Below, one piece after another: positions 17,118 to 21,350 of a stretch of 37,696 bases of DNA. The translations under genes were made by a program, and so were the position numbers. The DNA is from an uncultured Mycoplasma sp. GTDB lineage: Bacteria; Bacillota_I; Bacilli_A; RF39; UBA660. The notes under the pieces are model-generated. The model was not told the DNA's origin. It saw only the letters and a list, made by a program, of their open reading frames with translations, and searched no databases. The stretch covers positions 1-37,696 of the forward strand of contig CAMEEZ010000007.1 in NCBI GenBank assembly GCA_945915275.1. The letters run 5' to 3'. Numbering within the stretch: position 1 is the first letter of the stretch; the number at the start of each line of letters is the position of its first letter.

Positions 17118-17644
17118 TTAATTATTTATTATTTTAATAGCTCTTTCTAAAGCCTCCTTTGGTGTTTTTGCTGTTATACATAATATCCTATTTCTATCAT
17201 CAATATATTTATTGGCTAGATTTTCTGCCCATCCTCCAAATTTATCTATAACTATAATAGGTATATTTGCTTGATACGCAATAGCCATTTCTGTTAATGT
17301 TCCAGATCCTCCACCTATAGCGATAATTACATCACAAGATAATACTAAAGTAAATTCTCTTCCTCCACCAATATCTAACCCACAAGGAATGATTATATCT
17401 GGTATAAATTCACCCCAAATTTTTTTAGATTTTCCATAAGTTATTCCTACAGTTAAACCACCATTTTCCTTAGAACTTATCGCAGCGTTAGTGGATAAAG
17501 AAGAATATTCTTTTTCTGCACCATAAACTAATATATTGCCACTTATAGCAATTAATTTTCCTAACTCTTTAGCAAATCTTCAGCTTCTTTACTATAATTT
17601 AAATCTGCAGATGACCCCATAATTCCAATTTGTAATTTTTTCAT
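17118..17644 (-). pseudogene. LOG/TIGR00725-type nucleotide-binding protein, single frameshift
   Basis: From an ATG at 17644 the frame reads MKKLQIGIMGSSADLNYSKE, then hits TAG within a few codons. Removing one frame slip at the A-run 17574-17576 (TTT on the coding strand where TTTT is expected, GATTTTGCTAAAG) restores a continuous 175-aa protein to the stop at 17118. That protein contains GGGREFTLVLSCDVIIAIGG, GGSGTLTEMAIAYQANIPII and a C-terminal helix, the Rossmann/LOG fold of the TIGR00725 (SLOG) family, which binds nucleotide-like ligands. No other lesion is present and codon use is normal, so the change is recent, a sequencing error or slippage at the run. The start is not preceded by a perfect Shine-Dalgarno, but AAAGAGGATGTTAAA lies just upstream. 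It ends 80 nt before the regulator, without a visible terminator. Confidence 0.8.
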
Positions 17645-17698
17645 TTTAACATCCTCTTTCTCTTTTTAATATTCAATAATGATGCTTATTACCAAATG

Positions 17699-17729
17699 AA
17701 AAAGCTATACAGAATTACCTGTATAGCTT
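17699..17729 (-). terminator. Intrinsic terminator in the leader of the LOG-like gene
   Basis: Perfect 11-bp stem AAGCTATACAG / CTGTATAGCTT (17719-17729 and 17702-17712), 6-nt loop, followed by TTTC. The U-tract is short (five including stem bases), so termination may be partial, as expected of an attenuator. Confidence 0.7.
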
Positions 17730-17803
17730 ATTTATAATACAGGCAACAAGCATCACAAAACGCACTTGTTGCCGACGAATTTTAATGTCGTATTAACAAG
17801 TGC
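17702..17803 (-). promoter_or_regulatory. Chain of mutually exclusive hairpins (attenuator-like leader)
   Basis: Reading the minus-strand RNA 5' to 3': arm A GCACTTGTT (17795-17803) pairs with arm B AACAAGTGC (17762-17770). Overlapping B, GGCAACAAG (17765-17773) pairs equally well with C CTTGTTGCC (17742-17750). C overlaps CCTGTAT (17737-17743), which pairs with ATACAGG (17718-17724), and that last segment is part of the 5' arm of the terminator stem. Thus A:B, B:C, C:D and the terminator form a relay in which each helix excludes its neighbour. Arm A lies inside the end of the leader ORF, so ribosome position could set the state. Confidence 0.55.
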
Positions 17804-17847
17804 AGATTATTATGATGGTGTTGTCCATTAATAAAATAATTTAACAT
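17782..17847 (-). CDS. 21-codon His-rich leader peptide
   Basis: ATG at 17847, TAA at 17782-17784. The peptide starts MLNYFINGQ, then has three consecutive His codons (CAC CAT CAT), and ends NNLHLLIRH, giving 5 His in 21 residues. AAAGGAAG lies 6 nt before the ATG and a near-perfect promoter 18 nt upstream of that, so translation is likely. It is placed directly before alternating hairpins and a terminator, like an amino-acid attenuation leader. A role in sensing charged His-tRNA or a metal is conjecture. Confidence 0.55.
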   Translation of the reverse strand: MLNYFINGQHHHNNLHLLIRH

Positions 17848-17871
17848 AACAATCTTCCTTTCTTTGCCTAA

Positions 17872-17900
17872 AGTATATTAGATAATTTTTATTTTGTCAA
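17872..17900 (-). promoter_or_regulatory. Strong sigma-A promoter of the leader/LOG transcript
   Basis: Perfect -35 TTGACA (17895-17900), a 17-bp AT-rich spacer and TATACT (17872-17877). This is one of the best promoters in the window. Transcription should begin near 17865, just before the leader peptide's ribosome binding site. Confidence 0.85.
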
Positions 17901-19612: not shown

Positions 19613-20500
19613 TTAAAAATGATGCTTATTAATAAATGGATGCCTTAGTTTATTGTTTCTCTTTTCTAAATAACTAACATTTATTTTGTAATCTGGCTTA
19701 ATATATATAACTTCTTCATCTATTTTATTTTTAAAGGGTGATAATTTAATTTTTTTAGTCTCTAAAATATTTTGAGAAAATTTATATTTTTTAGACAAAG
19801 CAACTTTTCCAACATAATTTAATTTTTGGCCTTTTACTTCGCCCAAGTACAGCGAAATATTGTTTTTATTAACAGAATATCCTCCGATATAGAACTCTCC
19901 TTCATGAATATTCTTTATTTTTAGCCATGAATATGTTCTAACTCCAATTTCATATAAACTATTCTTTTTTTTAGCAACTATCCCTTCAAGATTAAGTTTA
20001 GTTATTTCATTAAAAAGATTAATTCCATGTTCTTCAAAATAAATAGTTTTATTAAAGCAATCATTCTCTTGATATTTATTTAATACTTTTTTCCTTTCCA
20101 TGAGTGTTAAATTAATTAAGTCTTTACCTTCATGAATAATATCAAAACACATATATGTCACTGGATTATTATCCTGATAATATTTTATTCTTGATAAATT
20201 TTTTACATTATTTCTTTTTAATAACTTTTCAAATGAAGGAAAACCATTATCAAATAATACTATCTCCCCATCGAAAATAGTGTTTTCATTAACCAAGTTT
20301 TTTATGGATTGCAATTCTGGATACAAACGAGTTATATCTTTTCCGTTTCTACTATAAATCTTTACTGACTTTTTATTCGCATAAATGATAGCTCTAATTC
20401 CGTCAAACTTTATTTCAAAAATATAGTCTTTATCATTAAAAGGCTTATTAACTTCTTTTAAGAGCATCGGTTTTAATGGTACGTTATTCCAAAGGCTCAT
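19613..20500 (-). CDS. ATP-dependent DNA ligase, stand-alone LigD-type ligase domain
   Basis: It seals double-strand breaks with Ku in bacterial non-homologous end joining. The nucleotidyltransferase domain has motif I EIKFDGIRA (adenylated Lys), RNGKDIT, motif III FDGEIVLFD, motif IIIa YMCFDIIH, motif IV LEGIVAKKKNS and motif V SWLKIKN. The OB fold follows (about 200-290, with GEFYIGGYSVN and YVGKVALSKKY). At 295 aa it contains only the ligase; polymerase/primase and 3'-phosphoesterase domains typical of LigD are absent. Its ATG overlaps the Ku stop (ATGA), so the two are translationally coupled. Confidence 0.93.
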   Translation of the reverse strand: MSLWNNVPLKPMLLKEVNKPFNDKDYIFEIKFDGIRAIIYANKKSVKIYSRNGKDITRLYPELQSIKNLVNENTIFDGEIVLFDNGFPSFEKLLKRNNVKNLSRIKYYQDNNPVTYMCFDIIHEGKDLINLTLMERKKVLNKYQENDCFNKTIYFEEHGINLFNEITKLNLEGIVAKKKNSLYEIGVRTYSWLKIKNIHEGEFYIGGYSVNKNNISLYLGEVKGQKLNYVGKVALSKKYKFSQNILETKKIKLSPFKNKIDEEVIYIKPDYKINVSYLEKRNNKLRHPFINKHHF

Positions 20501-21246
20501 TTGTATTTTTTTAAACTCTTTTCTAAAGCAGCCATCAAGTTATTAACTTGTTCTTTAGGGCTAGATTTTTTTCCTTTTACTTCTTTTCCTTCGAGTTTAT
20601 CATTTATTGCGTTTTTAATATTATTTTGATATTCATCTTTGTATTCTTTAGGATCAAATTTTATGCTTAAATTATCAATTAACTGAATTGCCATATTTAA
20701 TTCTTTATCTTTATAATTTGTTTCTATTTCTTTTTCATCGATAACTACTTCTTCATCAAAATATAATGTTGTCATAATAATACCAAAATTTGTTAATCTA
20801 AGTATACAATAATAAAACTTACTTCCAATGATTGTTTTAGCTAAAGCAACTTTTCTTGTTTTCTTTAAAGCATGACAAAATAGATTATAAGCCTTAGATT
20901 TACCTTCAGTTTCTAAGACATAACTTTTTTCGAATAACACAGGATCAATGTCCTTAATATCCACAAAACCTACGATTTCAATGGTTTTATCATTTTCTGG
21001 TTTTAGTTTATCTAATTCATCTTTTTCTAACACTAAATAGGTATCATTTTCATACTCATAGCCTTTTACTATGTCTTTTTCTTTAACATCTTTCTTGCAA
21101 TGTGGACAATACTTAATATATTTAATTCTCTGTAAACATTTTTTGTGAAGTTGATTAAATGAGGTATCATTATTTCTTATTACAGGATTCATTAATACTG
21201 GAATGTTAACTAAACCAAAAGAGATATTACTTTTAATATTTGGCAT
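20497..21246 (-). CDS. ku: Ku DNA end-binding protein
   Basis: Bacterial Ku forms a homodimeric ring on DNA ends and recruits the ligase. Family features: N-terminal SNISFGLVNIPVLMNPV, NQLHKKC, YCPHCKKDVKEKDIVKGYEY, DTYLVLEKDELDKL, VGFVDIKDIDP and the helical SIKFDPKEYKDEYQNNI, followed by a Lys-rich tail (EGKEVKGKKSSPKE). The frame is open further upstream (to 21333), but AGGTGA directly precedes the ATG at 21246 and the conserved region starts there, giving 249 aa, normal for Ku. TATAAT lies a few bases before the ribosome binding site; no good -35 is seen. Confidence 0.94.
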   Translation of the reverse strand: MPNIKSNISFGLVNIPVLMNPVIRNNDTSFNQLHKKCLQRIKYIKYCPHCKKDVKEKDIVKGYEYENDTYLVLEKDELDKLKPENDKTIEIVGFVDIKDIDPVLFEKSYVLETEGKSKAYNLFCHALKKTRKVALAKTIIGSKFYYCILRLTNFGIIMTTLYFDEEVVIDEKEIETNYKDKELNMAIQLIDNLSIKFDPKEYKDEYQNNIKNAINDKLEGKEVKGKKSSPKEQVNNLMAALEKSLKKYK

Positions 21247-21310
21247 ATTATCACCTATATTATAGTATTTACTAAAAGATTTAAAATAACACTCTAAAAA
21301 TATTAAAGCT

Positions 21311-21350
21311 ATAAAAAAATTAAAAAACGCCATTTGTTGTTTTTTAATTT
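21311..21350 (-). terminator. Terminator before ku
   Basis: AAATTAAAAAAC / GTTTTTTAATTT stem on the minus strand (21339-21350 and 21317-21328), 10-nt loop, followed by Ts. It overlaps the end of the upstream gene and separates it from ku. Confidence 0.75.

Follow-up and report, generated by a model that had tools for sequence, protein, structure and literature searches.

Histidine-codon leaders on an alternating-arm RNA scaffold in uncultured gut Bacilli: a probable attenuator family with apparently interchangeable sensor peptides

On the minus strand of the window (the whole 37,696-nucleotide stretch of DNA analysed here), a very short open reading frame with a run of His codons precedes a cluster of hairpins and a LOG-like gene. 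An earlier note, made from the sequence alone, read this arrangement as a translation-coupled attenuator and possibly a new leader family, while objecting that a LOG-like protein is not a biosynthetic enzyme and that Firmicutes generally use T-boxes for His. The locus raises the question of what such a leader senses, and why it stands in front of this gene.

Architecture of the leader

The features of the locus, in the order of transcription, are:

17872..17900, minus strand: sigma-70-type promoter, TTGACA-17 nt-TATACT, with 11/12 consensus matches in the sequence
17854..17860, minus strand: Shine-Dalgarno sequence AAGGAAG of the leader ORF, from the sequence
17782..17847, minus strand: leader peptide ORF, MLNYFINGQHHHNNLHLLIRH and stop; 21 codons, with related peptides conserved in relatives
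17812..17820, minus strand: putative regulatory His codons CAC CAT CAT, ending 11 nt 5' of the CTT core of arm 1
17787..17803, minus strand: arm 1, within the ORF, GCACTTGTT ... CGAC; from the fold; covaries with arm 2 (swap z -14.5)
17762..17776, minus strand: arm 2, GTCGGCAACAAGTGC; partner is arm 1, or arm 3 via GGCAACAAG (17773-17765; 2:3 swap z -12.0)
17737..17756, minus strand: arm 3, GTGATGCTTGTTGCCTGTAT; partners are arm 2, arm 4 or arm 6
17715..17728, minus strand: arm 4, AGCTATACAGGTAA; predicted antiterminator with arm 3 (3:4 swap z -8.2), or 5' half of the terminator
17703..17712, minus strand: arm 5, CTGTATAGCT; 3' half of the intrinsic terminator (4:5 swap z -16.6)
17699..17703, minus strand: U-tract of the intrinsic terminator, from the sequence
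17679..17693, minus strand: arm 6, GGTAATAAGCATCAT; 3' of the terminator; can pair with arm 3 over 15 bp
17118..17644, minus strand: putative controlled gene, SLOG cluster 4 / TIGR00725 (LOG-like); PF18306 E 7.6e-25, TIGR00725 below cut-off

The promoter, with its -35 hexamer TTGACA at 17900-17895 and its -10 hexamer TATACT at 17877-17872 separated by a 17 nt spacer, is the top-ranked of 10 in the region, and its match to 11 of 12 consensus bases bears out the near-perfect promoter described in the earlier note. The 21-codon ORF is also as described there, running from 17847 to 17782 with the three consecutive His codons at 17820-17812; its peptide holds five His in all. A Shine-Dalgarno-like motif, which was a filter criterion of the scan, lies 5' of the leader ORF in 93/94 leaders. 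The ORF is followed by five arms that alternate between CTTGT-like and ACAAG-like sequence, the final two forming an intrinsic terminator with its U-tract. Each of the four overlapping helices that had been proposed together with a terminator is present, with duplex energies from -13.5 to -16.9 kcal/mol (1:2, -15.9; 2:3, -16.9; 3:4, -13.5; 4:5, -16.1). The whole leader folds at -51.7, against -29 +/- 3.6 in dinucleotide shuffles (z -6.3). The terminator-like site comprises 12 pairs; two such sites, one on each strand and both the same hairpin, compare with 0.2 expected in shuffles.

The sixth arm pairs with 17742-17756 of arm 3 at -22.3 kcal/mol (z -6.5). The window and two subtypes of the leader show an arm 6:arm 3 pairing of 12-15 bp, with 13/93 loci at z < -4; its carriers among the relatives include L036, L041, L051, L069, L081, L089, L095, L109, L166 and L171. 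Arm 6 cannot influence the first termination decision, and may act on the processing of readthrough RNA.

Conservation, covariation and a proposed mechanism

By DNA search, the leader recurs once more in this genome, on contig C1, and is also present in four further genomes of the family. A covariance model, R1, built from these six His leaders, gives at least 46 matches in at least 38 of 291 family genomes, and a core model of the scaffold without the codon run, R2, gives at least 50 matches in at least 40 of 385 genomes of the order. About one genome in ten of this family of uncultured gut Bacilli has a homologue. A 20-base stretch of the leader ORF, searched as an exact word, recurs at 52 or more further loci among 84,980 species genomes, and has no match in viral contigs. 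The 52 loci are all from uncultured Bacilli, "Tenericutes" and similar, many of gut or rumen origin and including Candidatus Coprovivens, and their order is presumably RF39 of GTDB; because they share the ORF word by construction, they supply extra gene contexts and not independent evidence for the word. Outside the family, in a sample of 395 genomes of the class, only two real matches to R2, both weak, are among those listed. These are L220 (44 bits) and L223 (41 bits), which are real His leaders in another family; L221, L224 and L225, also outside the family, have no suitable leader and were rejected as spurious. L223 is a tandem pair of His leaders (HHYHH and HHHHH) 5' of a hisZ-like gene.

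No Rfam family matches the locus at gathering score or at E<=10, the RF00514 His_leader covariance model finds nothing there, and neither does the T-box model RF00230, which detects T-boxes elsewhere in the same genome. A mobile element or repeat was considered, since copies precede unrelated genes, and was rejected: the order of ORF, arms and terminator is constant, and the targets share one signal.

The earlier note had named loss of the ORF or arms in relatives as evidence against its reading; relatives in fact retain the ORF with its His run, as well as the four alternative helices. A swap test of duplex energies set each arm's cognate pairing against its pairing with partner arms borrowed from other leaders, using 46 leaders less than 75% identical, drawn from 94 aligned to R2. 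The shuffling ignores phylogeny, and non-neighbouring arm pairs serve as the control. Cognate partners are stronger for all four neighbouring pairs (z -14.5 for 1:2, -12.0 for 2:3, -8.2 for 3:4 and -16.6 for 4:5), whereas four non-neighbouring combinations show no cognate preference (+1.5, +2.2, +0.6 and -1.3). Column counts in alignment A7, which was fitted to helices 1:2 and 4:5, give 94.8% paired for these two helices, with double changes in 22/23 pairs and a covariation score of 0.459, against 0.168 after shuffling and no more than 0.091 after sliding. Helix 2:3 is 91.2% paired, with a score of 0.246 against 0.159. In a single fixed column register, helix 3:4 has no covariation excess (77.7% paired against 78.0% in shuffles), because the subtypes ...TTGCCTGTAT and ...GTGCTTGTATC pair different stretches of arm 3; its support is therefore that of the register-free swap test. 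Thus the covariation proposed earlier as a check over homologous loci is found for 1:2, 4:5 and 2:3, but not for 3:4 in a fixed register.

In 55/66 His leaders and in 8/14 Arg leaders (described below), the codon run ends 11 nt 5' of the CTT core of arm 1, while the stop codon drifts, over all classes, from before that core to 17 nt past it. A stalled ribosome covers the RNA to roughly 10-12 nt beyond its A site, and a constant run-to-arm spacing with a drifting stop is what a ribosome stalled on the run would require. With arm 5 left out, the fold computed for the stalled ribosome is exactly 1:2 plus 3:4. Two other folds run against the model. With the ribosome at the stop codon and arm 5 yet to be made, 3:4 is favoured if the opening bases of arm 2 are masked by the ribosome. 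Once the leader is complete, the lowest-energy structure for the stalled ribosome is 1:2 plus 4:5, with the terminator on, so the model requires a kinetic order in which 3:4 forms before arm 5, as in classical attenuators.

In the mechanism that we propose, RNA polymerase would start near 17865 and a ribosome would translate the 21-codon leader. With charged His-tRNA, the ribosome would run to the stop codon and cover arm 1, so that arm 2 would take the nascent arm 3, arm 4 would be left free, and the 4:5 terminator would form. When His-tRNA is scarce, the ribosome would stall on CAC CAT CAT, its front edge not quite reaching arm 1. Helix 1:2 would then form, leaving arm 3 free to pair with arm 4 before arm 5 exists; the terminator would be blocked and the downstream gene transcribed. 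The leader is very probably a ribosome-mediated transcription attenuator sensing charged tRNA-His. This reading has its observed basis in the sequence, its conservation, the alternative helices, the codon-to-arm spacing and the gene context, from which the positions of the ribosome, the choice between termination and readthrough, and the signal are predicted. The comparative evidence, with the lack of a match in Rfam, supports the earlier suggestion of a translation-coupled attenuator of a possibly new family.

Two other explanations of the locus can be set against this one. Small ORFs and hairpins arise in numbers in AT-rich sequence, and the first reading was made by eye, which might leave a plain terminator or a chance hairpin cluster beside a meaningless ORF; conservation, covariation, gene context and the fold z-score contradict this, and we consider its probability negligible. 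The helices had been called hard to explain by chance from the outset, and the fold z of -6.3, the conservation and the swap test agree. Alternatively, the peptide itself could act, as a stalling nascent chain or as a metal- or histidine-binding peptide, instead of reporting codon starvation. The residues NNLHLLIRH after the run are well conserved in His leaders, and a class of leaders in front of ABC-F genes (below) has a conserved YVGKKIMY without a codon run, as is typical of drug-stalled leaders. However, the conserved residues of the His leaders are largely encoded by arm 1 (HLLIRH), so that RNA pairing accounts for them, and there are leaders that keep the run and have lost the peptide: L053 (HHHSNRTC), L101b (HHHHNNRTCK), L154 (HHHHNNFTC) and L161 (HHHSCVALLK). 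The identity of the run also tracks the downstream synthetase gene. An active peptide is therefore very improbable for the His leaders, and we retain codon-dependent attenuation as the preferred reading.

Genes behind the His leaders

The gene immediately downstream in the window is frameshifted near 17580, giving pieces at 17561-17644 and 17118-17579, which counts against the attenuator reading. Relatives have intact copies; the frameshift could reflect decay or an assembly error, the metagenome-assembled genome being 65% complete. The second leader copy in this genome precedes an accessory, PRK12420-like hisS, so that here SLOG4 and accessory hisS are separate, each behind its own leader. 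In L082, L111, L112 and L124, SLOG4 lies directly 5' of accessory hisS, and the same His leader stands at the head of their operon, the order being His leader, small ORF, PRTase, SLOG4, accessory hisS. Because SLOG4 shares an operon and a leader with hisS in relatives, the target in the window can be taken to belong to a set of histidine-controlled genes, which answers the objection that it is LOG-like and not biosynthetic. The same four loci, together with L081 and L122, have a conserved operon of the small ORF (GIVFSNDIKRIL), a PRTase-like gene (weak PF00156) and SLOG4, often with accessory hisS.

More widely, His leaders precede accessory hisS, hisG, the small ORF-PRTase-SLOG4-hisS operon, and genes for M20 deacylases, GNAT, S51-peptidase-like and DapF-like proteins. 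A crude text-rule tally of classes, then corrected by hand, gives about 22 hisS, 17 small ORF-PRTase-SLOG4(-hisS) and 4 hisG targets. The corrections assign L169 and L170 to ABC-F and L067 to M20, remove L162 from M20, recognise L101 as entered twice, and give L161 the leader MKKAKENHHHSCVALLK, which precedes hisS. A hisG gene lies directly 3' of the His leader in L046, L056, L100 and L125. Pfam has no match to the small ORF, S51-like and DapF-like proteins, which were named by eye. Among the leaders found, hisS, hisG and cysS stand as cognate genes behind matching codons, and no synthetase has a mismatched leader.

The family has two HisRS lineages. Canonical and accessory hisS coexist in four of 59 genomes surveyed (G000, on contigs C1 and C2, and G008, G207 and G012). 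The accessory copy is behind a His leader in G000 and G008 and, via the small-ORF operon, in G207; in G012 it adjoins a contig end. Eight genomes with the PRK12420-like hisS alone have neither leader nor T-box close upstream of it, and at L205 there is a weak T-box match about 3 kb from such a gene. Canonical hisS has a T-box within its flank, above gathering score, at 6 of the first 20 loci; the T-boxes of the window genome's own copy and of three others score below gathering. The His leader appears to mark the accessory hisS copy, with the canonical hisS of the window genome apparently keeping its T-box. The view that Firmicutes use T-boxes for His holds for canonical hisS, even in this genome, but does not hold in general, as His leader peptides had already been predicted in Firmicutes.

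Other codon runs on the scaffold, and known attenuators

The scaffold is also found with other leader peptides. Leaders with an Arg run (NNRRRLS and stop, or IIRRRRLRRHLRTR and stop) precede ArgE/DapE-type M20 deacylases in 13/15 cases. The sole Cys leader, MLNNMKYCCCCNNCLCCR (CCCCNNCLCC; L073), precedes cysS. Leaders of the form W(R)HH-IGNTYT precede ArgE-like M20 genes; Trp-(Arg)-His-(His) followed by IGNTYT or MGNTYT is seen 5' of such genes at L069, L070, L075, L100, L166-L168 and L171. ABC-F genes stand behind the scaffold at L068, L165, L169, L170 and L173, with a leader peptide that lacks a codon run: YVGKKIMY in three, TIMY in L173, and cut by the contig end in L165. Such a peptide without a run suggests nascent-chain or drug stalling for the ABC-F class, as known for MsrD (PMC10314930).

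R1, although trained on His leaders only, picks up members of all these classes in the family, among them Arg (E 6.6e-8 and 1.1e-7), Cys and ABC-F leaders that each have a leader ORF of their own; this speaks for common descent. Less certain than the attenuator itself is the wider proposal, drawn from sequence comparison, that arms 1-5 form one scaffold family in the order, with the preceding codons or peptide setting the specificity. With moderate confidence, we favour a homologous, general ribosome-stall sensor that an exchanged peptide would re-aim to His, Arg, Cys, Trp-Arg/His-His or, probably, a ribosome-targeting drug (ABC-F), with arm 6 adding a further layer in some subtypes. Homology across specificities would rest on short sequences, and the arms are short and of low complexity, so that CTTGT/ACAAG repeats might instead have arisen repeatedly, leaving the His, Arg, Cys and ABC-F scaffolds non-homologous. 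The similarly laid-out His attenuators of another family (L220 and L223), in which GATACAAG...CTTGTATC recurs, would fit such repeated origins, and a 2022 paper treats lineages as separate acquisitions (PMC9413887). Against this, the His-trained model recovers leaders of the other classes complete with their ORFs, the matches listed for R2 outside the family include only the two weak ones, and most His and Arg leaders place the run 11-12 nt from arm 1. We consider repeated origin unlikely, and return to the shared scaffold in the comparisons that follow.

Leader-peptide attenuation is classical, Firmicutes His leaders were predicted in 2010 and 2022, and synthetase attenuators are known elsewhere. 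In Bacillus, His leader peptides have been predicted before accessory hisS and hisZ (Naville and Gautheret 2010, PMC2965389). As here, a His-codon ORF and a premature terminator lie 5' of the accessory hisS while the canonical hisS has a T-box (PMC2965389). The lineage differs, and the regulon described here adds SLOG4/PRTase, hisG, S51-like, GNAT and M20 genes, a distinction drawn from the Bacillus descriptions. In the 2022 paper, His attenuators of the B. cereus group, Peptostreptococcaceae and Erysipelotrichales control his biosynthesis operons and share with the present leaders 3-5 His codons, alternative hairpins and a terminator (PMC9413887). L220 and L223, 5' of hisZ-like genes, have the layout given there, and, compared by description, the passages of the paper covered here mention no relative of the scaffold for Arg, Cys or ABC-F. 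A Cys-codon leader 5' of cysS is known as uORFC-8-2, the cysS attenuator of Rhodobacterales (PMC8632094), which resembles L073 by description; its host belongs to the Alphaproteobacteria.

In the proteobacterial his operon leader (RF00514), a stalled ribosome likewise chooses among chained alternative helices, but here there are five arms only, with no defined further upstream partner for arm 1. The T-box (RF00230) resembles the present scaffold in serving many amino acids with one RNA, and controls synthetases in the same genomes; it reads uncharged tRNA directly, whereas the sensor proposed here is a ribosome on the ORF. Amino-acid leader attenuators are filed per amino acid, and multi-specific control in Firmicutes is generally ascribed to T-boxes. 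What appears to be new is the lineage, the absence from Rfam and an apparently homologous scaffold with interchangeable sensor peptides. In the literature covered, which leaves out most subscription journals, we found neither a report of leaders of this type in the order nor one of a single scaffold common to several amino acids. If true, an exchangeable sensor peptide on a conserved scaffold would show how attenuators gain new specificity, and would provide a leader-peptide counterpart of the T-box family and a compact regulatory part with an input that a few codons determine. The leader set would also define a histidine regulon in uncultured gut bacteria, including the SLOG4/PRTase pair.

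Elsewhere in the window, at 19613-21333, two neighbouring ORFs resemble, by eye, Ku and an ATP-dependent DNA ligase, the components of an end-joining pair.
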